A DNA stretch of 64,000 bases. Origin: Pseudonocardiales bacterium. Its GTDB lineage: Bacteria; Actinomycetota; Actinomycetes; Mycobacteriales; Pseudonocardiaceae. The notes beneath the pieces are model-generated. The model was given only the letters and a program-made list of their open reading frames with translations. It did no database searches and had not been told where the DNA came from. Position 1 is the stretch's first letter. Every line of letters begins with the position of its first letter. This document shows positions 39,605-54,119 of the stretch, piece after piece. The stretch spans positions 186,001-250,000 of the forward strand of contig JAFAPC010000134.1 of the NCBI GenBank assembly GCA_019247305.1, in the 5' to 3' direction. The translations under genes and the position numbers were made by a program.

Positions 39605-41338
39605 CTAGCGGGAACGGAGGTAGGCAATGCGTTGTTCGAGCTCCTCGGCGGTGGCCATCGCCGTGGGCGGGCCGCCGCAGGCGGTGCGGACCTCCTGGTG
39701 AATCACTCCGTGCGGGCGGCCGGTGCGATGGTGGGCCAGCGCCACCAGGGTGTTGAGCTCCCGACGCAGCTCCGCGAGGCGCTCCCGGACCGTCGGGGCT
39801 CGAGGGGTCTCGGGCAGTCCCGTTACGGGCGCCGTGGCGCGCTCGCTCGCCCGGGCGAGCTGCTGCTCCTGGCGCCGCCGCAGCAGCGCCCGCATCTGCT
39901 CCGGTGCCAGCAGCCCCGGCAACCCGAGGTAGTCTTGCTCATCCTCGGTCGTGGCGAAGGCGGCCGTGCCGAAGGACGCACCGTCGTAGATCACCTGATC
40001 GAGCTCGGCGCTGGCGCCGAGCGCGGTGAACGCCCGCTCCTGCTCGCCGGGCTCGTCGCGCTGGGCGTTGGCCTGCGCGAGCGCAGCGTCGTCCCAGCCT
40101 TCGTCGGGCCGGTGCGGCGCGCCGAGCACGTGATCACGTTGTTTCTCTAGCTCGCTCGCCAACCCCAGCAGCACGGGCACGCTGGGCAGGAACACCGTGG
40201 CGGTCTCACCCGGGCGCCGGGACCGGACGAACCGGCCCACTGCTTGGGCGAAATACAGAGGGGTGGCCGCCGATGTCGCATACACCCCGACCGCCAACCG
40301 GGGCACGTCCACGCCCTCGGACACCATCCGGACCGCGACCAGCCAGCGTTCGTCGGAGTCGGCGAACGCGGCGATCCGGCTGGAGGCGGACGGGTCGTCC
40401 GAGAGCACCAGCACCGGTTCCCGACCGGTGATCTTCCGCAGGATCCCAGTGTAGGCTTTGGCGGCGGTGTGGTCGGTGGCGATCACCAGGCCCGCCGCGT
40501 CGGGCAGCGCGCCAGCGCGGAGCTGAGCTAGCCGGGTATCCGCGGCGGCGAACACCGCGGAGATCCACTCCCCTGCTGGATCCAACGCGGTGCGCCAGGC
40601 CCGGGCGGTGTGCTCGGCGGTGAGCGGCTCCCCCAGCCGCGCCGAGTACTCCTCCCCCGCGCTGGTCCGCCAGTGGGCCTCGCCAGAGTAGGCGAGAAAC
40701 ATCACCGGCCGCACCACCCCATCTGCCAGTGCCTCTGAGTAACCGTAGAAGTGGTCCGCGGCGGAGCGCAACGCACCGGCACCATCCGGTTCATAGCGGA
40801 TGAACGGGATTGGTGTGTCGTCACTGCGGAACGGCGTTCCGGTCAGGGCGAGTCGGCGCAGCGCCGGGGCAAAGGCCTCCCGCACTCCCTCACCCCAGCT
40901 CTTGGCGTCTCCGGCGTGGTGAATCTCGTCGAGCACCACCAGGGTGCGGCGTGTCTCGGTACGCACTCGGTGCAGGGTCGGGTGTGCGGCGACCTGGGCG
41001 TAGGTGACCACGATTCCGTGGTAATCGCGTGAGGTGGCGCCCACCGAGTTGCGGAAGTCGGGGTCCAGCGCCAGCCCTACCTCGGCGGCCGCGGCCGCCC
41101 ACTGGTGCTTGAGGTGCTCAGTGGGGGTGACCACGGTCACCGTGTGCACGGTCCGGTCGGACAGCAACTCAGCTGCCACCCGCAAGGCGAAGGTCGTCTT
41201 GCCGGCACCCGGCGTGGCGACCGCGAGGAAGTCCCGCGGCGCAGTGGCCAGGTACCGGGCCAGCGCTCTGCGCTGCCAGGCGCGCAGCGGCCGACGCGGG
41301 GACGCGACACTGGCGGCGGTCTCGGCGGTGCGGGACAC
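39605..41338 (-). CDS. SF2 DEAD/DEAH-box helicase
   Basis: The 577-residue protein has LRAWQRRALARYL (Q-motif-like), Walker A VATPGAGKTT, VTPTEHLKHQW, the DEIHH box (VLDEIHHAGD) and LTGTPFRSDDTPIPFI. A C-terminal helicase lobe has VRMVSEGVDVPRL and QAVGRFVRSRR. The C-terminal tail (ARASERATAP onward) is charged and helical. This resembles single-protein actinomycete helicases of the XPB/RAD25-like group that act on DNA, with role unproven. Its start at 41338 precedes a convergent-free gap that holds a 25-bp triple repeat. Confidence 0.9.
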   Translation of the reverse strand: MSRTAETAASVASPRRPLRAWQRRALARYLATAPRDFLAVATPGAGKTTFALRVAAELLSDRTVHTVTVVTPTEHLKHQWAAAAAEVGLALDPDFRNSVGATSRDYHGIVVTYAQVAAHPTLHRVRTETRRTLVVLDEIHHAGDAKSWGEGVREAFAPALRRLALTGTPFRSDDTPIPFIRYEPDGAGALRSAADHFYGYSEALADGVVRPVMFLAYSGEAHWRTSAGEEYSARLGEPLTAEHTARAWRTALDPAGEWISAVFAAADTRLAQLRAGALPDAAGLVIATDHTAAKAYTGILRKITGREPVLVLSDDPSASSRIAAFADSDERWLVAVRMVSEGVDVPRLAVGVYATSAATPLYFAQAVGRFVRSRRPGETATVFLPSVPVLLGLASELEKQRDHVLGAPHRPDEGWDDAALAQANAQRDEPGEQERAFTALGASAELDQVIYDGASFGTAAFATTEDEQDYLGLPGLLAPEQMRALLRRRQEQQLARASERATAPVTGLPETPRAPTVRERLAELRRELNTLVALAHHRTGRPHGVIHQEVRTACGGPPTAMATAEELEQRIAYLRSR

Positions 41339-41522: not shown

Positions 41523-41597
41523 CTGCGGGACACCCGCACCCAGTGTCCTGCGGGACACCCGCACCCGATGTCCTGCGGGACACCCGCACCCGGGCAC
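41523..41597. repeat. Three tandem copies of a 25-bp unit
   Basis: CTGCGGGACACCCGCACCC is repeated at 41523, 41548 and 41573 with period 25 and small changes in the last six bases. GCGGG-ACA-CCCGC within each unit is palindromic, so each copy can form a hairpin. The array lies between the helicase start and the ferritin-like gene start at 41619. It may be a regulatory site. Confidence 0.85.
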
Positions 41598-41618
41598 AGC
41601 GACGGAGTGAGGAGTGCC

Positions 41619-42503
41619 ATGTCCTTCGACATCGTGAACTACAGCGCCACCGCCCGTCGCGTGGTGGACGACGACGTCGACTACTCCGCCTTTGCCCACA
41701 CACCGCTACCCGAGGCCGCCCTGCGGGCGTTGCAGTACATGTCCGACGTCGAGAGCCACACCATCTGCTACCTGCGGGATTTGCTGGTCACTCCGTCCCA
41801 TCAGGATCCGGAGATCACGACTTTCCTGACCATGTGGGCTTACGAGGAGTTCTGGCACGGCGAGGTGCTGGATAAGGTGCTGGCCGCGCACGGCCGGGTC
41901 GTAGGCCCTGATCGGATCCGCCGCGTCCGGCTTGCCCAGGGCCGCCGTGACCGGTTGTCTCCGATCTACCAGGCGCTGGCGGCCAATCTGGTCGGTGAAG
42001 ACTTCATCGCGGTACACATGGCCTTCGGCGTGATCAATGAATGGTCCACCTACGCCGGCTACGGCCGTCTGCTGGCCCAGACGAGCCATCCCGAGCTGGC
42101 CAAGGTGGTCGGGCGCATCCAGCGGCAGGAGACCCGGCACGTGGCCTTCTACGCCAGCCAGGCGCGGGAGCGGCTGGCGCGCTCCCGCGCCGCCCGGCTG
42201 CTGACTCGGCTTGTCCTCAAGCTGGGGTGGACCCCGGTAGGATCCGGAATCATGCCGGCGGCGGAGACAGCGTTTTTGTTGCGCTACCTGATGGGCGGCG
42301 CCGACGGCGCCAGAGTGATCCGCCAGATTGACGAGAAGATCGACCGGTTGCCCGGTTTGGCGGGCATGCATCTGGTCAGCCGCGCAGCCGCTCGCTACGG
42401 GGTGGGGCCCGGTACCGCTAGGCGTAGCCCAGGTCGGGGTCAGCGAGCCGGTTCCCTGCTGCGCTCGGGAGTCGCTCGGCCGCTGAGTGACCCCGAGTGG
42501 TAA
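41619..42503 (+). CDS. Ferritin-like diiron protein (acyl desaturase-like)
   Basis: About 294 residues. Two E-x2-H motifs are present: EEFWH at 76-80 and RQETRH with Glu171 and His174, plus further Glu residues (DVESH, INEWS) that could complete a diiron site. The spacing resembles soluble acyl-carrier-protein desaturases and ferritin-like oxygenases. A role in desaturating or hydroxylating an acyl chain would fit the lipid genes downstream. The ATG at 41619 was chosen; a GTG-free extension to 41568 would run through the tandem repeat. Its 3' end overlaps convergent larE by 64 bp. Confidence 0.8.
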   Translation: MSFDIVNYSATARRVVDDDVDYSAFAHTPLPEAALRALQYMSDVESHTICYLRDLLVTPSHQDPEITTFLTMWAYEEFWHGEVLDKVLAAHGRVVGPDRIRRVRLAQGRRDRLSPIYQALAANLVGEDFIAVHMAFGVINEWSTYAGYGRLLAQTSHPELAKVVGRIQRQETRHVAFYASQARERLARSRAARLLTRLVLKLGWTPVGSGIMPAAETAFLLRYLMGGADGARVIRQIDEKIDRLPGLAGMHLVSRAAARYGVGPGTARRSPGRGQRAGSLLRSGVARPLSDPEW

Positions 42504-43330
42504 CGCACCACCTCACCCTGGCCGTCCAGGCCGGCTTGCGCGACTCGGGTCAGCAGCCCTGCCCGGGCCTGCGGGGACACGCCGTCCAGCGCGGCTTGGT
42601 CGAGCTCGACCCGGAACCCTGCCGACCCCAGCAGCCGGACCCGCAGGTCGCGCACGGGAACCTGGTGGTCGGCGAGGTAGTGCCGGGCGGCCAGCTCGGC
42701 CCGCTCGACCAACGCCAGCGCCGGCACGCTCACCGGTATTCCGACCGCGATTCGGGAAGCCAGACACGGAGTACTCGGCTTGTCCCACACGCTCAGCTCC
42801 CACTGCACCGCCAGCAAACGGACAATCTCCTTGGTCGCGCCCACCTCGGCGAGTGGCTCCCGCACTCCCAGCTCCGCTGCCGCGCGCAGACCTGGGCGGT
42901 GCGCGGCCCGACGGTCATCAAGGTGGGTGCCGGTCGCGACGTGGGCAAACCCCCGCCGCTGCGCGAGATCGCGCACTGCGGCGAGCACGGTTCGCTTGCA
43001 GAAGTAGCACCGATTGCCGGCATTAGCCCGGTAGCCCGGGTCGGTGTGCTCATCGGTGTGCAGCACCACCAGCTCCGCCCCGATCTGCCCAGCGACACGC
43101 TGGGCCGTCTGGAGCTCGGCGCGGGCCAGGCTGGGCGAGTCAGCGATGGCGGCCAGCACGGCATCGGTGCCCAGCACCCGGATGGCCGCCGCCAGCACCA
43201 CGGCGGAGTCAACCCCACCCGAGAAGGCCACCACCACCGTACCCAACCGTCCCAGCGTCTCGCGCAGCGCCGCCGCGACAGAGCTCACGCTCAGGAGATC
43301 TGCAGTGTGCACGGTCAACCATCCTCGCAT
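42440..43330 (-). CDS. larE: LarE, ATP-dependent sulfur transferase for the nickel-pincer cofactor
   Basis: LarE adenylates and thiolates the carboxylates of the pyridinium mononucleotide made by LarB. The PP-loop SGGVDS is at about 37-42. Two Cys occur in NRCYFCK, a third in KPSTPCLASRI, and basic residues follow near GATKEIVRLLA. Sulfur donation uses a Cys in some LarE proteins and an iron-sulfur cluster bound by three Cys in others; three Cys here allow the latter. The ATG at 43330 was chosen because the frame upstream lacks conservation and overlaps larB. It is divergent from larB with a 39-bp gap. Confidence 0.92.
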   Translation of the reverse strand: MRGWLTVHTADLLSVSSVAAALRETLGRLGTVVVAFSGGVDSAVVLAAAIRVLGTDAVLAAIADSPSLARAELQTAQRVAGQIGAELVVLHTDEHTDPGYRANAGNRCYFCKRTVLAAVRDLAQRRGFAHVATGTHLDDRRAAHRPGLRAAAELGVREPLAEVGATKEIVRLLAVQWELSVWDKPSTPCLASRIAVGIPVSVPALALVERAELAARHYLADHQVPVRDLRVRLLGSAGFRVELDQAALDGVSPQARAGLLTRVAQAGLDGQGEVVRYHSGSLSGRATPERSREPAR

Positions 43331-43369
43331 CTCCGGTGCGCCACCGGCTCGCATGAGATAGTCGGCGCC

Positions 43370-44137
43370 GTGCTCGACTCCACACCGCAGCCATCGCAGC
43401 ACCCCGGGTCGCCTCCCGGGCAGGATCCCCCGGACAGCGCGGGGACCGCTCATCGGATCAGTGAGGTCGAGGTCGGCGGCATCGCCCGCCTGGATCTGGA
43501 CCGCGCCCGACGCACCGCGGTACCCGAGGTTGTTCTCGCCGAAGGCAAGACCGAGGACCAGACACTGGCCCTGCTGGCCGCCCAGCGGCGCAGCGAACCC
43601 GGGTTCCCCGCGCTGGCCACCCGCTGCCCTGAGGGCGTGCTGCAGCGGGCGCCGAGTGCCTTCCCGACCGAGCCGGTCCTGGCCGACCCCCTCGGGCGGA
43701 CCGTGATCGTCGGTGCGCTACCCCCGGCCCGCGGATGCGTCGCGGTGCTCACCGGAGGCACCTCGGACCTACCAGTGGCGCGCGAGGCGATCGCTACCCT
43801 CCAGGCACTCGGCGCCGGGCACCGGTTGATCGCCGATGTCGGGGTGGCAGGGCTGCACCGGTTGCTGGCGCACCTCGACGAGCTCTCCGCAGCCGACTGC
43901 GTGATCGCCATTGCCGGCATGGAGGGCACCCTGCCCGGAGTGGTGACCGGGCTGATCCGAACGCCCGTGGTCGGTGTGCCCACCAGCGTGGGCTACGGGG
44001 TGAGCGCGGGCGGGTACGTGGCCGCCGCGACGATGCTCGCCTCCTGCGCGCCCGGGCTGCCAGTGGTCAACATCGACAACGGGTTCGGCGCGGCAGCCCA
44101 TGCTGTCAAGATCATCGCTCGGGTGCACGGTGGCTGA
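43370..44137 (+). CDS. larB: LarB, pyridinium-3,5-bisdicarboxylate mononucleotide synthase
   Basis: LarB carboxylates and hydrolyses nicotinic acid adenine dinucleotide to the first pincer precursor. The protein is 255 residues. Its PurE-like domain is clear: VAVLTGGTSDLPVAREAIATLQALG, VIAIAGMEGTLPGVVTGLIRTPVVGVPTSVGYGVSAGG, and VVNIDNGFGAAAHAVKI. The N-terminal ARLDLDRARRTAVPEVVLAEGKT is also typical. The GTG at 43370 begins the protein. Its stop overlaps larC by 8 bp. Confidence 0.93.
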   Translation: MLDSTPQPSQHPGSPPGQDPPDSAGTAHRISEVEVGGIARLDLDRARRTAVPEVVLAEGKTEDQTLALLAAQRRSEPGFPALATRCPEGVLQRAPSAFPTEPVLADPLGRTVIVGALPPARGCVAVLTGGTSDLPVAREAIATLQALGAGHRLIADVGVAGLHRLLAHLDELSAADCVIAIAGMEGTLPGVVTGLIRTPVVGVPTSVGYGVSAGGYVAAATMLASCAPGLPVVNIDNGFGAAAHAVKIIARVHGG

Positions 44138-45359
44138 GCGCAGGGCAGCGTATCTGGACTGCACCGCCGGGGTATCCGGGGACATGCTGCTCGGGGCGTT
44201 CCTGGACGCCGGTGCGGACCTGGCCGCGGTGCGCGCCGCGGTCCGCTCGTTGGGCGTGCCCGGCCTGGACGTCGACGTCGAGCAGACCCGACGCGCCGGG
44301 CTGCGCTGTGCGCGAGCCGTGGTCGCCACCCCAGCCGCCGACCAACCCACCCGGGGGGTGGCCGAGGTGCTGGCCATCCTCCAGGCCGCCCGACTGGGCC
44401 CAGCAGCCGCCGACGTGGCCACCAGCACCTTCCAGCTCCTCGCGGAGGCGGAGGCCACGGTGCACGGCATCCCTATCGAGTTGGTGCATTTCCATGAGGT
44501 GGGAGCCGCCGACGCGCTGGCCGACGTGGTGGGCACCGCGGTCGCGGCCGAGCAACTCGGCTTACTCGCTGACGGCGCGCTGCTGAGGTGCTCAGCACTG
44601 GCGGCCGGCAGCGGCACCGCGCGCAGCGCGCACGGCACGATCCCGATCCCCGCACCGGCCGTCCTGCAGATCGTGGCCGACCGTGGTCTGTCGCTGACCG
44701 GCGGGAACCTGACTGGGGAACGCACCACGCCCACCGGGGCAGCCCTGGTCGCGACCCTGGCCAAGCCCGGTCCGCTGCCCCCGATGGCCCTCGACGCGGT
44801 GGGCAGCGGGGCGGGATGCCAGGACAGCCCGGAGCGACCCAACATCACCCGGCTGGTGATCGGCCGCCGGACCGAGCCCGAGCCAGGCCTGGGCATGACT
44901 GAGCTGGTCACCGTGGTGGAAACCACCGTTGATGATCTCGATCCTGAGCTTTGGCCGGGAGTGCTGCGCGCCGTGCGGGCCGCCGGAGCCTGGGACTGCT
45001 GGACCACCACCACCGTCGGCCGACACGGTAGGCCCGGGCAGGTGCTCACCGCGCTGTGCAGCGAGGAGGTTCGCCCGGCGGTCGTGGAGGCGGTGTTCCG
45101 GCACAGCACTACGCTCGGCGTGCGATGGGCGCGCTGGCAGCGCACGACGCTGCCCCGGATCACCGTGGGAGTGCCCGTGGGGCCGCCCGGAGCGGAGCAG
45201 AAGATCACCGTCAAGGTCGCCGCCGGACCGGGAGGGCAGCAGACCGCCAAACCTGAGCTTGCGGACACCGAGCGGGCCGCGCAGGCACTAGGGTGGCCGG
45301 TTCGTCGGGTGCGCGAGGCCGCGCTGTCGGCCTACCACCGCGACTACCCGGAGCCGTGA
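44130..45359 (+). CDS. larC: LarC, nickel insertase (cyclometallase)
   Basis: LarC inserts nickel into the pincer ligand in a CTP-dependent reaction. The 409-residue protein begins AYLDCTAGVSGDMLLGAFLDAG, carries FHEVGAADALADVVGTAVA near 120-140 and AHGTIPIPAPAVLQI, and ends in the LarC2-like domain (ETTVDDLDPELWPGVL). Both the LarC1 and LarC2 parts are fused in one frame, whereas Lactobacillus makes LarC by programmed frameshift. The GTG start overlaps larB. Confidence 0.93.
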   Translation: MAERRAAYLDCTAGVSGDMLLGAFLDAGADLAAVRAAVRSLGVPGLDVDVEQTRRAGLRCARAVVATPAADQPTRGVAEVLAILQAARLGPAAADVATSTFQLLAEAEATVHGIPIELVHFHEVGAADALADVVGTAVAAEQLGLLADGALLRCSALAAGSGTARSAHGTIPIPAPAVLQIVADRGLSLTGGNLTGERTTPTGAALVATLAKPGPLPPMALDAVGSGAGCQDSPERPNITRLVIGRRTEPEPGLGMTELVTVVETTVDDLDPELWPGVLRAVRAAGAWDCWTTTTVGRHGRPGQVLTALCSEEVRPAVVEAVFRHSTTLGVRWARWQRTTLPRITVGVPVGPPGAEQKITVKVAAGPGGQQTAKPELADTERAAQALGWPVRRVREAALSAYHRDYPEP

Positions 45360-45408
45360 GTGCGAAACAGTGTTATAGGACCGAATGCCACTCACGAGGA
45401 CGAAGCCC

Positions 45409-47736
45409 ATGAATAACCTTGCCGGATCCCACATCCTGCTCACCGGCGCCACGGGGTTTCTGGGCCAGGCCACGTTGGAGCGGCTGCTGGCCAGCTACCC
45501 GGACACCCACGTCTCGGTGCTGATCCGGCCCCGAGGTGAGCGCGGCGGCCCTGAGCGGCTGAGCGCCTTACTCCGCAAGAACGTGTTCCGTCCGCTGCGG
45601 GAGCGCCTTGGCGGGGACGAACTGGCGCGCATGGTGCGCCAGCGGGTCACCGTCATCGAAGGCGACCTCGGTTCGGTCGCCCTGCCCACCGACCTCGACG
45701 TCGTGATCCACGGTGCCTCGACAGTGTCCTTTGACCCCCCGGTGGATGAGGCGTTCCGCACCAACGTCTCGGGTGTCGCGACCCTGTATGCGGCACTCTC
45801 CGGCGCACCGCACGTGGTGCACGTGTCCACCGCCTACGTTGCGGGCACCCGCAAGGGTGTGGTCGCTGAGACAGCACTGGACCACAACGTGGACTGGCGG
45901 GTTGAGCTGGACATGGCGCTGGCGGCCCGGGCCGAGGCGGAGCGGGACTCTCGGCGCCCCGAGATCCTGCGCCGCGCGCTGGCGCAAGCGGAGGCGGCGC
46001 ACGCCAAAGCCGGACCGCAGTCCACCGCCGCTGACGCCGAACGGTTACGCACCGAGTGGGTCACCCGCCGGCTGGTGGACTATGGTCGCACCCGAGCCCA
46101 GAGCCTGGGCTGGCCGGACGTTTACACGCTGACCAAGGCGCTCGGTGAGCGGGTCGCCGAACAGTGCTGGGCGCACAGCGGCCGACCGCTGTCGGTCATC
46201 CGGCCCGCCATCGTGGAGAGCGCGCTGCGCCACCCCTACCCCGGGTGGATCGACGGTTTCAAGATGGCCGACCCATTGATCATCGCCTATGGCCGAGGGG
46301 TGCTGCGTGAATTCCCCGGATTGCCCGATTCGGTCCTGGACGTGATCCCGGTCGATCTGGTGATCAACGCTATCCTCGCCGCGGCGGCCCGGCCGCCCGG
46401 CACCGAGCCGGCGTACCTACACGTCAGCTCCGGGGCCAGCAACCCGTTGACCTTCCGAAACATGTACCTGCTGTGCCGGGAGTATTTCGAGCGCCACCCC
46501 ATGCCCGACGGTGAGCGCGGCCACATCACGCCACCGGTCTGGCGGTTCCCCGGCAGCCAGCAGGTGGAGCTGACGCTGCGCGCTGGGGAACAAGCCGCCG
46601 CGCTCGCGGAGCGGATCCTGCTGCGCTGGCCAGCCTCGAAGCGGTCCCAGGACTGGCTGACCAGCTTAAGCCGCCAGCAGCAGGACTTAGGGCAACTGCG
46701 GGAATACGCTGACCTCTACGGCGTCTACACCCGCGCCGAAGTGATCTACGATGACACTCGGCTGCGCGAGCTGCACGCCGCGTTGCCCGCCCAGCGAGCC
46801 ACCGAGCACGGCTTCGACCCCACCGTCATCGACTGGCGGGCCTACCTGCAGGACGTGCACTGCCCGTCGATCACGGCCACGGTCCGCCGAGCCGGGCAAC
46901 AGCGGGCACAGTCCACCGCTGGCCGTCGCGGATCTTCCTCGCCGTCTCCACCGATATCAGCACTGTCCCTGCCTGAGCGCACCGACGTGGTCGCCGTATT
47001 CGACCTGGAGGGCACCATCGTGCACTCCAACGTCGTCGAGTCCTACCTGTGGGCCCGGTTGGCGACGACGCCCCGCTCCGGCTGGCTCGGCGAGTTGGCC
47101 GACCTGGCCCGCTGCACCCCCCGGTACCTCTACGCCGAGCGCCGGGACCGCGGTGAACTGTTGCGCGCCTTCCTGCGCCGCTACGCCGGCGCGCGGGTCG
47201 AGGAGCTGCGGGCGCTGGTCACCGAGGTGCTCGGCGACGCGCTGCTGCACCGGGTGATGCCCGAAGCCACCCGGCAGATCCGTCGGCACCGCGCCGCCGG
47301 GCACCGAACCGTCCTCATCACCGGCGCCGTAGACCTGCATGTGGAGCCGTTGTCCGTGCTGTTCGACGAGGTGGTGGCCAGCCGGATGCACGAGAAAGAC
47401 GGCGTGCTGACTGGGTTTCTCGACGCCCCACCGCTGGTCGACGAGGCGCGCGCGGCGTGGCTGCGGCAGTACGCTCACGCCCACGGCCTGCGCCTGGATC
47501 GCTCCTACGCCTACGCGGACAGCTATTCCGACCGTCCGCTGTTGGAGGCCGTGGGGCACCCCCACGCGGTCAACCCGGACTCTGCGCTCTTCCGGCACGC
47601 CCAGCGCCACCGGTGGGTGGTGCACCGCTGGGGTGAGCACACCGGCGGGCTGCTCGAGGTGCTGTTTGACGTCACCCGAGCCGACGCCACGGTTGAGCTC
47701 CGGTCAGAAGCCCGTCGGCACGGAGGACTGCGATGA
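45409..47736 (+). CDS. Fatty acyl-CoA reductase (SDR) fused to a HAD-IB-like domain
   Basis: About 775 residues in two parts. The first is an extended SDR reductase: ILLTGATGFLGQATLERLL near 10-28, VIHGASTVSFDPP, HVSTAYVAG, DVYTLTKALGE (Tyr and Lys) and VIRPAIVESALRHP. This fits enzymes that reduce acyl-CoA to alcohol. After a linker near 500-520 a HAD domain starts with VFDLEGTIVHS; the nucleophile Asp532 is kept, but the second acid is Glu534 instead of Asp. VLITGAVDLHVEPL and YAYADSYSDRPLLEAVG follow. The ATG at 45409 is preferred over 45385. It overlaps the next gene (ATGA). Confidence 0.85.
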   Translation: MNNLAGSHILLTGATGFLGQATLERLLASYPDTHVSVLIRPRGERGGPERLSALLRKNVFRPLRERLGGDELARMVRQRVTVIEGDLGSVALPTDLDVVIHGASTVSFDPPVDEAFRTNVSGVATLYAALSGAPHVVHVSTAYVAGTRKGVVAETALDHNVDWRVELDMALAARAEAERDSRRPEILRRALAQAEAAHAKAGPQSTAADAERLRTEWVTRRLVDYGRTRAQSLGWPDVYTLTKALGERVAEQCWAHSGRPLSVIRPAIVESALRHPYPGWIDGFKMADPLIIAYGRGVLREFPGLPDSVLDVIPVDLVINAILAAAARPPGTEPAYLHVSSGASNPLTFRNMYLLCREYFERHPMPDGERGHITPPVWRFPGSQQVELTLRAGEQAAALAERILLRWPASKRSQDWLTSLSRQQQDLGQLREYADLYGVYTRAEVIYDDTRLRELHAALPAQRATEHGFDPTVIDWRAYLQDVHCPSITATVRRAGQQRAQSTAGRRGSSSPSPPISALSLPERTDVVAVFDLEGTIVHSNVVESYLWARLATTPRSGWLGELADLARCTPRYLYAERRDRGELLRAFLRRYAGARVEELRALVTEVLGDALLHRVMPEATRQIRRHRAAGHRTVLITGAVDLHVEPLSVLFDEVVASRMHEKDGVLTGFLDAPPLVDEARAAWLRQYAHAHGLRLDRSYAYADSYSDRPLLEAVGHPHAVNPDSALFRHAQRHRWVVHRWGEHTGGLLEVLFDVTRADATVELRSEARRHGGLR

Positions 47737-48974
47737 GCCTGGCGCTGCAGTATCACCGCTCCGCTGGGCGCTACTTCGCCGCCCGCGCGCTCAGCGGCAC
47801 CCGTGCTGGTGGACGGCTAGCGGGTGCGCTGGCCAGCAATGTGGCGCCACTGCGGCTGGTCGAGCAAACCGATCCCGTCCCGGCCGACGAGCGCTGGGTT
47901 CGGATCGAGCCGGTGCTGTCGGGGATCTGCGGCTCCGATCTCAGTCTGCTCACCGGCCGGTCCTCGCCCTACCTGGGGCCGTTGACCTCGATGCCCTTCG
48001 TTCCCGGCCACGAGGTGCTCGGGCGCACCCTCGATGAGCTGCCCGGGTTGCCGCAGGGCAGCCGGGTCGTGATCGACCCGGTACTGCGGTGCGCGGTGCG
48101 CGGCCTGCCGGCCTGCCCGGCGTGCCTCGCCGGGCACACCAGCCGCTGTGACCACATCACCGGCGGAGCGCTGGCTGCTGGCCTGCAGACCGGCTTCTGT
48201 GCCGACACCGGCGGCGGCTGGAGCCAGCGCATGATCGCGCATGCCAGCCAGCTGCATCTGGTGCCCGACTCGCTGCCCGACGAGATCGCGGTACTGGCGG
48301 AGCCGTTGGCCTGCGCGGTCCACGCGGCGCGCCGGGTACCGATCAGTCCAGGCGCGTCGGTGCTCGTGATCGGCGCGGGCACGGTAGGGCTGCTGACCCT
48401 GCTCGCGCTGCGCAAGCTCACCGCAGCCGGCGAAGTGTGCATGATCGCTAAACACGCCCACCAGGCCGAGCGGGCCCGCCAGTTAGGTGCCACCCAGGTC
48501 ATCAGCACCGAGGGCACCGCTAGAACGCTGCGCCGCAGCACCGGAGCGCTGCTGGTCGAGCCCGAGCTGGGCGAAGATTACCTGCTCGGGGGGATGGACC
48601 TGGCTTTCGAGTGCACCGGTGGGGCGGCGGGCCTGAACACCGCGCTGCGGTCGCTGCGGGCCGGCGGCACAGTGGTCGCCTCGGGGATGCCCTCAGGTGG
48701 GGTGGACCTCACTCCGCTGTGGTACCGCGAGCTGCTCCTGGTCGGGGCGTATGCCTCCGCGGTCGGCGCCTCAGCAATCGATACGTCGGCGATAGCCGAC
48801 GAGCCCGCTCAGGGTGATTTCCCCGAAGCCATCGCGCTGGCGAGCGCGGCGCCGCTGGATGGCTATGTTGATGCGACATACCCGCTGGAACGCTGGCGTG
48901 CCGCGCTTGATCACGCAGCTTCAGCCGGCCGGCTAGGCACCATCAAGGTCGTCTTCGCCCCCGGCCGGGGTTAA
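47733..48974 (+). CDS. Zinc-binding medium-chain alcohol dehydrogenase
   Basis: The 413-residue protein has the catalytic zinc site (GICGSDLS and PGHEVLG), the structural zinc loop (CPACLAGHTSRC) and the nucleotide-binding VLVIGAGTVGLLTLLAL near 210-226. It oxidises or reduces an alcohol/aldehyde pair with NAD(P). Placed right after the acyl reductase, it may convert fatty alcohol and aldehyde. It overlaps the reductase stop (ATGA) and is 45 bp from the LarA homologue. Confidence 0.88.
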   Translation: MSLALQYHRSAGRYFAARALSGTRAGGRLAGALASNVAPLRLVEQTDPVPADERWVRIEPVLSGICGSDLSLLTGRSSPYLGPLTSMPFVPGHEVLGRTLDELPGLPQGSRVVIDPVLRCAVRGLPACPACLAGHTSRCDHITGGALAAGLQTGFCADTGGGWSQRMIAHASQLHLVPDSLPDEIAVLAEPLACAVHAARRVPISPGASVLVIGAGTVGLLTLLALRKLTAAGEVCMIAKHAHQAERARQLGATQVISTEGTARTLRRSTGALLVEPELGEDYLLGGMDLAFECTGGAAGLNTALRSLRAGGTVVASGMPSGGVDLTPLWYRELLLVGAYASAVGASAIDTSAIADEPAQGDFPEAIALASAAPLDGYVDATYPLERWRAALDHAASAGRLGTIKVVFAPGRG

Positions 48975-49019
48975 GGGCGACCAGCAAGCGAACCGCCGAG
49001 AGTAGGGGCAGGAGAGAGC

Positions 49020-50594
49020 GTGGGCAGACCAGGTTTCGTGCTCGACGTTGACGAACGGACTCCCCCGCTGCTGATGCACGAGGGTGAGGGGTTCCGGTTG
49101 GAGCGTCTGCCGCTGGGCAGCCGGGTGATCTACCCGCCGGAATCGTTACCGGGCATCGTCGACCTTGAGGGCGCGATCCAGCACGCCCTGATGCATCCCC
49201 AGGGCAGCGACCCACTGCCACAGCTGCTCCGTCGCGGAATGCGGTTGACCATCGTGTTCGACGATCTGTCCTTGCCGCTGCCGCCGATGCGCACCCCGGA
49301 CGTCCGGCAGCGAGTGATCGAGCAGGTGCTGGAGCTGGCCGCCGCCGCTGGGGTAGACGACGTCGAGCTCATTGCGGCCAACTCACTGCACCGGCGGATG
49401 ACCCCGGCGGAGCTCAAACGCACGGTCGGCGAGCGGGTGTTCCGCGCCTTTCACCCCGACCACCTGCGCAACCACGATGCCGAGGACCCCACCAATCTCC
49501 TGCACCTGGGCACCACGGCGCACGGCGAGGACGTGGAGATCAACCGTCGAGCCGCGGAAAGTGACCTGATCGTCTACGTCAACATCACGCTCACCGCGAT
49601 GAACGGCGGCTCAAAGTCGGTATCCGTCGGGTTGGCCAGCTACGCCAGCCTGCGCCACCACCACAATGTGCATACGCTGCGGCATTCGCGCTCGTTCAAC
49701 GATCCCCCCCACTCAGCGATGCACCATTCCTACGACCGGATGGCCGACGTGATCGGCGGGCAGGTGCCGGTCTTCACCATCGAGACAACGCTGAACAACG
49801 CGCCGTTCCCGTCCGCACTACGCTTCCTCACCCGCCGCGAGTGGGAGTGGAACCTCACCGACCAAGCCAGCTACCTGGCCGTCAAGCGGAGCAACGACCT
49901 GGCCAGCGCCAAGCTGCGGCGGCAGATCTGGCAGGCCACCGAGGCGCCATATGGCGTCACCGGGGTGCACGCGGGCGCCCCGAGCCAGGTGCACCCGCAC
50001 ACCCTGGCCGCGCTGCACCGCCAGCAGCTCACCGAGGTGCACGGGCAGGCCGATGTGGCGATTTTCGGCTTGCCCTACATTTGCCCGTACAATGTGAACT
50101 CAATCATGAATCCGATCCTGGTGATGTCGCTGGGCCTGGGCTATTTCTTCAACCTGTACCGAGGTAAGCCGATCGTGCGCCAGGGCGGGGTGGCGATCTT
50201 CTACCATCCGATGCGGCCCGAGTTCCACCCGGTGCACCACCCGAGCTACATCGATTTCTACGAACTGCTGGCCGAGACCACCGACCCGGTGATGCTGGAG
50301 ACCAAGTACGAAAAGCAGTTCGCCACCGATCCCTGGTACATCCACCTGTACCGAACCAGCTACGCCTATCACGGTGTGCACCCGTTCTACATGTGGTACT
50401 GGGGTGCGCACGCGATGCAACACCTCAATGATGTGATCTTCGTCGGGGGGCACCGGCCGACCACCGCTCGGCTGGGCTTCCGGGCCGCATCCACCCTGGC
50501 CGACGCGTTGGAGCTGGCGTCGGACACCGTGGGTCGCGATCCGCAGATCAGCTACTTGCACGCCCCGCCGCTGGTGCTGGCGGACGTGCGATGA
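49020..50594 (+). CDS. LarA-family (DUF2088) nickel-pincer enzyme, substrate unknown
   Basis: The 524-residue protein belongs to the lactate racemase family. It has VFDDLSLPLPPMRTP near 79-93, NSLHRRMT with His124, and the pincer-binding lysine region GGSKSVSVGLASYASLRHHHN with Lys199 and His213-215. In LarA the matching Lys is joined to the cofactor and the His residues bind or help nickel catalysis. The protein is about 100 residues longer than LarA (about 425), with extra C-terminal sequence (YGVHP, HAMQHLNDVIFVGG). Because the genes around it act on lipids, a lactate substrate is unlikely. The GTG start follows AGGAGAGAG. It overlaps the next gene (ATGA). Confidence 0.88.
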   Translation: MGRPGFVLDVDERTPPLLMHEGEGFRLERLPLGSRVIYPPESLPGIVDLEGAIQHALMHPQGSDPLPQLLRRGMRLTIVFDDLSLPLPPMRTPDVRQRVIEQVLELAAAAGVDDVELIAANSLHRRMTPAELKRTVGERVFRAFHPDHLRNHDAEDPTNLLHLGTTAHGEDVEINRRAAESDLIVYVNITLTAMNGGSKSVSVGLASYASLRHHHNVHTLRHSRSFNDPPHSAMHHSYDRMADVIGGQVPVFTIETTLNNAPFPSALRFLTRREWEWNLTDQASYLAVKRSNDLASAKLRRQIWQATEAPYGVTGVHAGAPSQVHPHTLAALHRQQLTEVHGQADVAIFGLPYICPYNVNSIMNPILVMSLGLGYFFNLYRGKPIVRQGGVAIFYHPMRPEFHPVHHPSYIDFYELLAETTDPVMLETKYEKQFATDPWYIHLYRTSYAYHGVHPFYMWYWGAHAMQHLNDVIFVGGHRPTTARLGFRAASTLADALELASDTVGRDPQISYLHAPPLVLADVR

Positions 50595-51550
50595 GCAGTC
50601 TGCGCGCCGAGCTACGGCTGCTACGGCACGGCCGGGACTGGCGGGGCCGGGCCCGCGTGCCGCGCTCAGCGCAGCGCTGGGAACTGCCGGAGAACGGGGA
50701 CGATTTCCCCACCGCGTGGGCCCGAACCGCCCCCGCGCGGGCACTGCGCACGGCCCTGCAGCAGGGCGTGCTCAAGCCGGTGGTCTGGAGCCAGACCCGG
50801 CCGGTGGTGCACGGCCGGGAATACCTGGAGGGCGTCCGCGGTCCGGCGATTTTCATCGCCAATCACTCCAGCCACCTGGACACCCCGGTGCTCCTGGGTG
50901 CCCTCCCCCGACGGATCACCGAGAAGCTCGCGGTCGGGGCCGCCGCCGACTACTTCTTCGACTCCCGGGCCACCGCTGCGGCCACCACCCTGCTGTTCAA
51001 CGCGTTTCCGGTGGATCGGCGCGGATCGCGACGAGGCCGCAGCCTGGCCGCCGAGCTGGTCGAGGACGGCTGGAGCGTGCTGCTCTACCCCGAGGGCAGC
51101 CGCACCGTGGACGGCTGGCTCAGCGCGTTCAAGCTTGGTGCCGCGCAACTGTGCGCGATGAAGGGGGTGCCGGCGGTGCCGATCGCGCTGCGCGGCACGT
51201 TCGCCGCGATGCCACGTGGCCGGCGCTGGCCGTACCCTGGACGGCCCCGGGTCACCGTCCGGATTGGGCGACCGCTGCGGATCGAAGCGAACGAGACGGT
51301 GCCGGAGTTCCGCACTCGGCTGGTGCGCGCGGTAGCCACGCTCTGGGCCGAAGACGACCTGGGCTGGTATCGTGCCCTGCGGGCAGCAGCCGACGACACC
51401 CTGGCCCTACCCACCGGTTCGCGCCGAGCGCTACCCACCACCGCCTCCGGTCAGCCCGCGCACGACCACGACATGGCCCCGTGGCGCCGAGTCTGGGAGT
51501 CCACCCGCCCCCCCGCCAATGACGGCCCCCACCCAGTCTGGCCAGACTGA
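50591..51550 (+). CDS. PlsC-like 1-acylglycerol-phosphate acyltransferase
   Basis: The 319-residue protein has the acyltransferase motifs NHSSHLDTPVLLGALP (H-x4-D), YPEGSRTVDGW (E-G-x-R) and VPAVPIALRG. It should transfer an acyl chain to a glycerol or other alcohol acceptor at the membrane. Its position at the end of the operon with acyl reductase, dehydrogenase and LarA homologue points to one lipid pathway. The ATG overlaps the LarA-like stop. Confidence 0.88.
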   Translation: MSSLRAELRLLRHGRDWRGRARVPRSAQRWELPENGDDFPTAWARTAPARALRTALQQGVLKPVVWSQTRPVVHGREYLEGVRGPAIFIANHSSHLDTPVLLGALPRRITEKLAVGAAADYFFDSRATAAATTLLFNAFPVDRRGSRRGRSLAAELVEDGWSVLLYPEGSRTVDGWLSAFKLGAAQLCAMKGVPAVPIALRGTFAAMPRGRRWPYPGRPRVTVRIGRPLRIEANETVPEFRTRLVRAVATLWAEDDLGWYRALRAAADDTLALPTGSRRALPTTASGQPAHDHDMAPWRRVWESTRPPANDGPHPVWPD

Positions 51551-52220: not shown

Positions 52221-54119
52221 ATGACCGAAACTACTCGACTGACCGTACCGGCCCCGAGCCCACCGACCATCGGTCCACAGGCAGGAACCGGTTTGACTAA
52301 GTTCCTCGACCCTGTGCGTATACCGCCGGTGTTACGTCCAGGTCCTGGTCAGCATCCTCACCACATGACGATCGAGCTGCGGGCGACGAAGGTTTCACTG
52401 CACTCGGAACTGCCACCGACCACGTTGTGGACCTATGCCGGGCACTCCCCCGGACCCACCATTGAGGTTCGCCGGGGCCAGCCGGTGCACGTCACCTGGA
52501 GAAATGAGATCTCCGGCCGGTATCCGCTCGTCGCCGTCGAGGTGGAGGCTCCCGGACCTCCTGGCCCGGAGGGCCCTTTCCCGCAGGTGGGGAACACTCC
52601 TGGCCGTGACGGCGCGCAGCCGAACCAGGACATCGCGAATCTGCCCCCGTGGACGGTGGTGCACCTCCACGGCGCACGGACCGACGGGAGCAACGACGGG
52701 CTCCCGGAAAACGCTGTTCTCCCGGGTAGAGCGCAGGTTGCTGAGTACGCGAACGACCAGCAGGCGACGACGCTGTGGTATCACGACCACGCCATGGGCA
52801 TCACCCGCTTGAATGTCGTGAGCGGCCTGTTCGGGATGTACCTCATCCGCGATGAGGAGGAAGATAAACTTCATCTGCCCGGTGGCGAATACGAAATACC
52901 CCTGATCATCTGTGACCGTAATCTCGACACGGACCCTGCGGGCAGACTGACCGGCCAGCTGCTGTACAAGGTAGCCAACCTCAAGATCGATATACCCGGC
53001 CTGCCCGAAACCCGTTCATTGTTGCAGTTCTTCGGTCCGTATACGTCGGTGAATGGAGTCATTTGGCCGCACCTGGACGTGGCGGCCAGATGGTACCGGT
53101 TCCGGATCCTCAACGCCTCCAACGGCCGGTTCTACCGCTTGTTCCTGCTTGATGAGCACGATAACGTGCTGCCCGGCGCCATCAAGCAGATCGGTACCGA
53201 CCAGGGACTGCTTCCTGAGCCGGTATCGATCGAAGGAGAGCTGACCCTCGCTCCGGCCGAGCGCGCCGACGTCCTGATCGACTTTAGTGCTTTCCGCGGC
53301 CGGCACCTGCGTCTGGTCAATACCGGAGGCGGGGCTATCAACGTCAATCCCCCTATCGTGCCGGGTCAGACCGACCCCGGGGCAGGGCTTGTCGAGCCGG
53401 ACGTGATGCAGTTCCGGGTTAGCTCCGCGCCGGTTCACGACCGTTTCGAGCTTCCAAAGAAATTGTCCCGGTCCTTTGTCCGTCTCACGCACGACTCACT
53501 GCCACACGATCATGGCCATCGGTGGGTTGTGACTGCCCCAGGGAGCCCGGCTATCCCGCACCCTGAGCTGTGGGAGATGGCCGAGGTCGACCCAGCCACG
53601 GTGACCATCCCCAGCGATGGCATTATCCAGGTCCAGGGACCAGCGACAGGGAACAATGTGATCACCCTGCGGCGGGTGGCGAGAAGGTATGAGGATGCGT
53701 CCACCTTCTCCGTGGAACACGGCGCCTGGGAGATATGGAACTTCCTCAACATTCCCATCGGTCCCGCGCACCCGATGCACATCCATCTGGTGGGCTTCCA
53801 GGCGCTGAGCCGCCACATTTACCACACGGAGAGCTTCGATCCCCAGATCCACGGATCAAAGACGCCGATCGTCTTCGACCGCACGGGGACTCTCGATCCG
53901 AACGAGCAGGGCTGGAAAGACACGATCCGGGTCAACCCAGGTGAAATGGTCAGCGTGGCTGGCCAGTTCGTTGGCGGAACGGGCCGGTACGTCTACCACT
54001 GCCACCTCCTGGACCATGAGGACGAGGGAATGATGCGGTCCTTCGTTGTCATGCCGGGCGAGGTCATGAAGCTCACGGATGCCATGCCGCATATGACAAT
54101 GCCGGTCGCCGCGGTATAG
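52221..54119 (+). CDS. Multicopper oxidase, phenoxazinone synthase/CotA-like
   Basis: The 632-residue protein has all four copper motifs in order: HLHGAR near 150, WYHDHAMG near 190, HPMHIHLVGF near 515 and YHCHLLDHEDEGMM near 595. No signal peptide is visible, as in phenoxazinone synthase. PhsA of Streptomyces antibioticus, which couples o-aminophenols into phenoxazinone, has similar length and plan. The 3-amino-4-hydroxybenzoate genes that follow make an o-aminophenol, so this oxidase is a plausible tailoring enzyme. A bilirubin-oxidase- or CotA-like role is the alternative. Ribosome site AGGGACAGAG. Confidence 0.9.
   Translation: MTETTRLTVPAPSPPTIGPQAGTGLTKFLDPVRIPPVLRPGPGQHPHHMTIELRATKVSLHSELPPTTLWTYAGHSPGPTIEVRRGQPVHVTWRNEISGRYPLVAVEVEAPGPPGPEGPFPQVGNTPGRDGAQPNQDIANLPPWTVVHLHGARTDGSNDGLPENAVLPGRAQVAEYANDQQATTLWYHDHAMGITRLNVVSGLFGMYLIRDEEEDKLHLPGGEYEIPLIICDRNLDTDPAGRLTGQLLYKVANLKIDIPGLPETRSLLQFFGPYTSVNGVIWPHLDVAARWYRFRILNASNGRFYRLFLLDEHDNVLPGAIKQIGTDQGLLPEPVSIEGELTLAPAERADVLIDFSAFRGRHLRLVNTGGGAINVNPPIVPGQTDPGAGLVEPDVMQFRVSSAPVHDRFELPKKLSRSFVRLTHDSLPHDHGHRWVVTAPGSPAIPHPELWEMAEVDPATVTIPSDGIIQVQGPATGNNVITLRRVARRYEDASTFSVEHGAWEIWNFLNIPIGPAHPMHIHLVGFQALSRHIYHTESFDPQIHGSKTPIVFDRTGTLDPNEQGWKDTIRVNPGEMVSVAGQFVGGTGRYVYHCHLLDHEDEGMMRSFVVMPGEVMKLTDAMPHMTMPVAAV

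Follow-up and report, generated by a model that had tools for sequence, protein, structure and literature searches.

The known nickel-pincer enzymes of the LarA family racemize or epimerize small hydroxy acids and sugar acids (main-text passages of PMC7583248 and PMC11770544). What does a LarA homologue do inside an operon of lipid-type genes? The question is raised by a 64,000-nucleotide stretch of a Pseudonocardiales bacterium (here called the window; it lies on contig C150 of a draft genome of 5.2 Mb), which holds genes for synthesis of the nickel-pincer nucleotide (NPN) cofactor (larE, larB, and larC) followed by a fatty acyl reductase (FAR) fused to a HAD domain (FAR-HAD), a zinc alcohol dehydrogenase (ADH), a LarA homologue, and a PlsC-type acyltransferase. 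A first-pass annotation had named these seven genes, all of which we recovered as profile matches, and had suggested that a pincer enzyme acts here on a lipid or hydroxyacyl substrate, an interpretation that is partly supported overall. On balance we lean toward the reading that LarA and ADH together are a nickel-pincer-dependent stand-in for AGPS in a conserved actinobacterial ether-type lipid operon, judging from gene distribution and residue conservation.

FAR-HAD, ADH, LarA, and PlsC form a conserved cassette

The LarA subfamily profile NF052592 scored above its cut-off in 42 of 394 genomes of the class and 86 of 396 genomes of the phylum. The neighborhoods of LarA loci were fetched (40 class, 80 named, and 20 phylum cassette loci, with at least 15 named loci duplicating a class or phylum locus) and then searched with the window proteins. 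Restricting the count to loci with sufficient flanking sequence on both sides, we found the core of FAR-HAD, ADH, LarA, and PlsC kept in order and strand at 104 of 108 NPN-type loci (class 32/32, named 60/61, phylum 12/15; the exceptions are L134, L226, L230, and L233), and complete at all five Frankia-type loci with a decayed LarA. The order persisted at LarA identities of 51 to 60% in other classes. This neighborhood search strongly supports the link of LarA to acyl-reduction and acyl-transfer genes that had been proposed for the window. Clustering of open frames at the 40 class loci revealed no further family kept across most of them.

FAR was near none of 29 more distant LarA homologues, comprising nine outgroup loci (L082–L089 and L091) and 20 distant phylum loci (L234–L253). 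A distant HAD match was present at L235 and a distant ADH match at L244, and the groups at about 40% identity (L234–L240) showed neither FAR nor any hint of a substrate. The first-pass annotation had held that larBCE and LarA standing elsewhere without lipid genes would mark the association as chance. Such neighborhoods do occur in other LarA subfamilies (L082, L085, L086, and L087) and were not found in this one. Adjacency of the cofactor genes to the lipid genes, also part of that annotation, proved not to be general: larB or larC lies within the fetched stretch at 2 of 40 class, 26 of 80 named, and 2 of 20 phylum loci, and both its side and its orientation relative to the cassette vary. What stood was the coupling at the level of the genome, with LarC present in 40 of the 42 genomes with NPN-type LarAH14.

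A few loci are irregular. At L229 and L230 (family group f58), LarA and FAR-HAD-ADH are 2 to 6.5 kb apart, with other sequence between them, and PlsC was not detected. Genus group g27 (L059 of G316 and L081 of G300) shows an interrupted FAR-HAD and a frame-split LarA, as if the cassette were eroding there; L139 (Candidatus Frankia californiensis) is the same contig as L059. The cassette at L181 is on an Acidobacteria metagenome-assembled genome record, reflecting transfer or misbinning.

AGPS and NPN-type LarA are alternative partners of FAR-HAD

Ether-lipid synthesis proceeds through FAR, a dihydroxyacetone phosphate (DHAP) acyltransferase, AGPS (alkyl-DHAP synthase, which forms the ether bond), and a reductase (as outlined in passages of PMC9131029). 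FAR-HAD was found (E up to 1e-80) in 76 of the 394 class genomes, which divide into 44 with NPN-type LarA, nine Frankia-type genomes with decayed LarA, and 23 without LarAH14. We fetched the FAR-HAD stretch from 20 of these 23, and in most of the 20 loci it also holds SDR, PlsC, and AGPS. AGPS lies within the fetched stretch at 18 of them (at L254 the contig ends, and in G211 the AGPS, SDR, and PlsC genes are elsewhere, at L287), and the operon protein aligns along its entire length with AGPS structures of Dictyostelium and of mammalian type (E 2e-128 and 2e-91).

Defining an AGPS orthologue by at least 51% identity and at least 628 bits (the next tier reaches at most 395 bits), we found one in 36 of the 394 class genomes, namely all 23 without LarAH14, all nine with decayed LarA, and four more of genus group g44. 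None of the 44 FAR-HAD genomes with NPN-type LarA held an orthologue among the best three candidates scored per genome, and none was present in 80 further phylum genomes with LarAH14 (best 366 bits). For the window genome, three of 12 candidates were scored, with no AGPS match at E 1e-60. By these orthologue assignments, the FAR-HAD partners AGPS and NPN-type LarA are mutually exclusive.

An 88-row FAR-HAD tree places three changes between LarA and AGPS: in the Frankia-type lineage, in G211 among Kribbella and Nocardioides relatives, and in a clade of family groups f22, f39, f46, and f48 beside the LarA-bearing L071. A second tree, whose 46 rows were chosen after inspecting the first, also gave three changes, with one change in 0% of 200 bootstrap trees, and on it a single AGPS clade was rejected (approximately unbiased test, p 3.5e-10). 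Because the AGPS groups nest within LarA groups on these midpoint-rooted trees, the LarA partner looks ancestral.

The LarA homologue keeps the NPN lysine and nickel histidine, and most of its genomes have LarC

NF052592 is named "NPN-dependent hydroxyacid isomerase, LarAH14/15/16", and the window LarA is a member by score. It also matches Lar_N (PF09861; 134.5 bits, cut-off 23.3) and is the only Lar_N protein in its genome. Residues D72, H108, K184, and H200 of Lactiplantibacillus plantarum LarA (numbering as given in the main text of PMC7583248) have kept equivalents in D82, H124, K199, and H215, but the loop with H174, the second catalytic histidine, aligns with a four-residue gap and is missing. 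A canonical hydroxyacid racemase is therefore unsupported. K199 and H215 do not vary across the 43 NPN-type rows, and D82 and H124 are present in 42; the sole row without them, L081, has its gene broken over two frames. N188, near the H174 position, is likewise invariant (43/43), while the H174 position itself, an invariant Asn in the single-histidine LarAs described below, aligns to the gap. The Arg75 position is Leu85 in the window LarA and Ile in others, as against Arg in 7 of 8 outgroup rows. According to the main text of PMC7583248, LarA homologues without H174 or K298 may run another hydride-mediated reaction, and a purified Frankia LarAH14 was inactive in seven reactions, hydroxyisovalerate and hydroxyisocaproate included (Table 1 of that paper).

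The model of the window LarA (pLDDT 81.7) has 9q3k as its best fold match (E 7e-29), and in sequence its closest solved structures (E 1e-34) are single-histidine LarAs, LarA_Sp of Streptococcus plurextorum (9q2u/9q3k) and LarA_Bw of Blautia wexlerae (9q3j). These have the catalytic His, the NPN Lys, the Ni His, and the Asp in common with the window LarA, and their Y307 and H401 align with its Y357 and H454. They differ in having Asn185 where the window LarA has the four-residue gap and H306 where it has P356, and their genes adjoin sugar-metabolism genes (as described in passages of PMC12611868), whereas the window larA adjoins lipid genes.

The two LarA genomes without LarC are G370 (63% complete) and G152, and LarB was above cut-off in all eight LarC-bearing LarA genomes tested. 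LarAH14 is the only Lar_N match in 30 of the 42 genomes, 29 of which have LarC. The AGPS genomes contrast with this, only 4 of 27 having LarC.

LarA and ADH decay together in Frankia-type genomes

Genus group g44, which we take to be Frankia sensu stricto, comprises 13 genomes, of which 10 have a divergent LarA; nine of these loci were aligned. K199 is replaced by Gly or Ala in all nine, H124 is kept in four, and H325 is kept in none. LarB was above cut-off in none of the 13 genomes, and LarC was absent both from the nine (apart from one scrap in G308) and from the other four. The ADH lost C66 and H93 of its catalytic-zinc site in all seven Frankia-type rows, along with nearly all structural-zinc cysteines; across 135 non-Frankia rows, C66 is present in 134 and H93 in 133. 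Counted over near-invariant positions, 20 of 76 changed in the Frankia-type ADH (seven rows), compared with 1 of 96 in FAR-HAD (eight rows) and 0 of 32 in PlsC (seven rows). Thus, with K199, C66, and H93 lost and the FAR-HAD and PlsC positions kept, LarA and ADH appear to have lost function together, and FAR-HAD and PlsC appear to be still under constraint.

Two fragments were observed in these genomes, a partial, frame-split larB piece (G162:C25:74095-74561, 111 bits) and a larC scrap of 46 positions (G308:C389:3936-4073, 35 bits). They are remnants of a lost NPN pathway.

A proposed route to an ether lipid and its alternatives

The pattern of gene exchange points to a LarA step that AGPS can replace, that is, ether-bond or alkyl-glycerol formation. 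We propose tentatively, as a possibility rather than an expectation, that a nickel-pincer enzyme and a zinc dehydrogenase form the ether bond by hydride borrowing, in an AGPS-independent and apparently older Actinomycetota route that was repeatedly displaced by AGPS. FAR would reduce acyl-CoA to a fatty alcohol (or aldehyde). LarBCE would make NPN, tethered to K199 of LarA, where it would accept and return hydride with H124 as the single base. LarA with ADH would then use hydride transfer to couple the fatty alcohol to an acceptor of three carbons. A glycerol-phosphate or acyl-DHAP unit might, for instance, be transiently oxidized at C2, undergo exchange or addition at C1, and then receive the hydride back. 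Such a route would dispense with the flavin adduct of AGPS and would give the same alkylated three-carbon unit that AGPS gives elsewhere. PlsC would add an acyl chain and the HAD domain take off the phosphate, so that the product would be a glycerolipid with a 1-O-alkyl (ether) chain. As to the precise reaction of LarA, this scheme is guesswork. ADH decayed along with LarA even though Frankia yielded no SDR orthologue, which argues for a role of ADH in the LarA step and against its being a plain alkyl-DHAP reductase.

Several observations weigh against an exchange of LarA and ADH for AGPS. The Fisher test of LarA/AGPS exclusion (p 3.7e-22) ignores kinship, and the counts rest on only about three independent switches. 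AGPS scoring in the class genomes covered the best three first-look candidates per genome. Residues were checked in 41 of the 44 NPN-type LarA genomes, the LarA of G098, G130, and G170 being contig-split fragments, and the LarA of G300 is split across two frames. The decayed Frankia LarA and ADH are retained as long open frames. A lower-tier AGPS-like paralogue, which retains the HHH active-site motif and could itself be an AGPS, occurs in 35 of the 44 LarA genomes (at most 388 bits) and in 8 of the 80 phylum genomes. The SDR orthologue (at least 51% identity) of the AGPS operons was found in none of the 13 Frankia-type genomes and is present in two LarA genomes, G257 and G158. And we know of no LarA that makes ethers.

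Many genomes that lack FAR-HAD carry this paralogue too, and it is more distant from the eukaryotic AGPS enzymes (L290: E 8e-82 and 2e-57); no AGPS-like match at E 1e-60 was seen in 9 of the 44 genomes, the window genome included, or in 72 of the 80. It is widespread in actinobacteria at 33 to 44% identity to the operon AGPS (e.g., L289–L297, L299, and L300). An exchange of SDR for ADH is unsupported, with no SDR orthologue in Frankia and two in LarA genomes, so the exchange was not simply one of SDR and AGPS for ADH and LarA.

The SDR distribution also fits a different account, that LarA and ADH build or invert another polar acceptor (a sugar acid, a polyol, or a glycerate head group), to which the fatty alcohol or acyl chain is subsequently attached; the lipid of AGPS lineages would then be different but physiologically equivalent. 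The likeness of ADH to polyol and ketose dehydrogenases speaks for this account, as do the hydroxy acids and sugar acids used by known LarAs (passages of PMC7583248 and PMC11770544) and the ties of the nearest solved single-histidine LarAs to sugar metabolism (passages of PMC12611868). Alone, however, it does not explain why AGPS, with no other gene, makes it possible to dispense with both LarA and ADH when FAR-HAD and PlsC remain constrained, and we regard it as somewhat unlikely. If the hydroxyacyl idea of the first-pass annotation is made concrete, LarA would isomerize a 2-hydroxyacyl unit, FAR would reduce it to a 1,2-diol, and PlsC would acylate the product. Members of the LarA superfamily do act on 2-hydroxy acids (passages of PMC11770544), and FAR and PlsC always adjoin LarA, but the histidine needed for racemization is missing, the purified Frankia LarAH14 was inactive on the substrates noted above (PMC7583248), and the AGPS exchange is given no reason; this scheme seems improbable to us.

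Still less probable is that LarAH14 does not use NPN and that larBCE serve another purpose. Earlier authors took the related groups 12, 13, and 16 to be possibly NPN-independent (main text of PMC7583248), and the Arg75 position is Leu or Ile. This account is at odds with the invariance of K199 and H215, with the near-universal presence of LarC, including the 29 genomes in which LarAH14 is the only Lar_N protein, and with the joint loss of residues such as K199 and of larB and larC in Frankia-type genomes. Finally, we give almost no credence to a neighborhood that reflects chance or inheritance without functional meaning. Shared ancestry, and nothing further, speaks for it; we rejected chance on the conservation of the core, whose order is kept even between LarAs as divergent as those of other classes, on the alternative partners with their three independent switches, and on the co-decay of LarA and ADH.

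Gene content of the window locus

Table 1. Features of the cassette and its surroundings in the window.
Feature	Coordinates	Strand	Evidence and remarks
Ferritin-like diiron protein, acyl-ACP-desaturase-like	41619..42503	+	Open reading frame 41568-42503, likely start 41619; occasional partner, not core
larE, sulfur insertase of NPN synthesis	42440..43453	-	TIGR00268 239.5 bits, cut-off 150
larB, pyridinium carboxylase of NPN synthesis	43490..44137	+	NF033503 227 bits, cut-off 175
larC, nickel insertase of NPN synthesis	44130..45359	+	PF01969 358 bits; TIGR00299 and NF052512 above cut-off
FAR-HAD, fatty acyl-CoA reductase with HAD-IB phosphatase-like domain	45385..47736	+	PF07993 161 bits; HAD 118 bits
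ADH, zinc medium-chain alcohol dehydrogenase, polyol/ketose-reductase-like	47733..48974	+	PF08240, PF00107
LarA homologue (LarAH14 type), predicted single-histidine NPN enzyme	49020..50594	+	NF052592 893 bits, cut-off 740
PlsC-type acyltransferase	50591..51550	+	PF01553 64.6 bits

The genes had been described as mostly joined by start-stop overlaps. Such overlaps are present at three of five plus-strand junctions (larB/larC, FAR-HAD/ADH, and larA/plsC), and gaps of about 25 and 45 bases separate larC from FAR-HAD and ADH from larA. The inclusion of larE in the operon did not hold: it lies between the diiron gene and larB on the minus strand and is thus not in the operon here. In relatives such as L112 and L127 (Streptomycetaceae), the diiron gene, larE, larB, and larC share one strand with the cassette. 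The larB start is provisional; the match covers residues 332-540 of the open frame 42497-44137, with no ordinary start codon near the start of the match. larC likely starts at a GTG that overlaps the larB stop.

FAR-HAD matches the fatty acyl-CoA reductase 7eoz over residues 12-518 (E 1.6e-43) and the HAD-IB profile TIGR01490 at 115 bits, and both its YxxxK motif and the HAD nucleophile Asp540 are kept in 131 of 131 aligned sequences. PlsC keeps HX4D in 138/138 and EGxR in 137-138/138. The closest solved chains to ADH are 4ej6, the ketose reductase 1e3j, and idonate and sorbitol dehydrogenases (E 1e-20 to 1e-16).

The diiron ferritin-like protein reported just upstream was confirmed, although it passes no Pfam cut-off (PF03405, FA_desaturase_2, 19.5 bits against 22.7). 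Its model (pLDDT 82) has stearoyl-acyl carrier protein desaturases as top Foldseek matches, which are weak (E 3e-3, TM about 0.55). Relatives occur at 10 of the 80 named cassette loci, at one of the 40 class loci, and also in AGPS-type loci. This protein thus adjoins FAR-HAD in LarA and AGPS settings alike, often in two copies in the latter (recurrences besides the window: L254, L256, L258, L263, L264, L266, L269, and L270). It could desaturate an alkyl chain or have a role in vinyl-ether formation. Flanking the locus are a multicopper oxidase like the o-aminophenol oxidase PhsA (52221-54119; 803 bits, below the cut-off of 950) and a helicase distantly similar to a dnd restriction protein (39605-41338), which also precedes the diiron gene at L104 and L105.

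Relation to known systems and significance

The FAR and the acyltransferase (with HX4D and EGxR) are common to the window cassette and the peroxisome-type ether-lipid set of FAR1, GNPAT, AGPS, and alkyl-DHAP reductase, and the bacterial AGPS operons, with FAR-HAD, SDR, PlsC, and AGPS, resemble that set as a whole. The LarA-type genomes that we examined differ in having no AGPS orthologue, with LarA and ADH in its place. The myxobacterial ether-lipid genes, ElbD and MXAN_1674-1676, likewise include FAR-like and acyltransferase domains, with a HAD gene in the elb operon and AGPS in a second operon; by their description in passages of PMC9131029, they come without LarA or NPN genes and with their domains fused otherwise.

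The NCBIfam name of LarAH14/15/16 gives no specific substrate, and neither the lipid context nor the AGPS exchange appears in the main-text passages of the papers on LarA homologues. The literature searched, which included few subscription papers and preprints, yielded no paper linking NPN enzymes with ether lipids, or actinobacteria with AGPS; PMC8305020, the only paper with both terms, has them in unrelated passages. A bare list of neighbors may already be in Supplementary Table S1 of PMC7583248 (associated COGs). The LarA subfamily and the gene parts are already known; a nickel enzyme that forms ethers would go beyond a variation on them.

If the proposed exchange is correct, the nickel-pincer cofactor would enter lipid biosynthesis, and a function would be found for a LarA subfamily present in more than a fifth of the sampled phylum genomes. 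Ether-type lipids would be predicted in Nocardioides, Kribbella, Actinomadura, and Frankia relatives, and AGPS and LarA lineages, side by side, would constitute a natural experiment.

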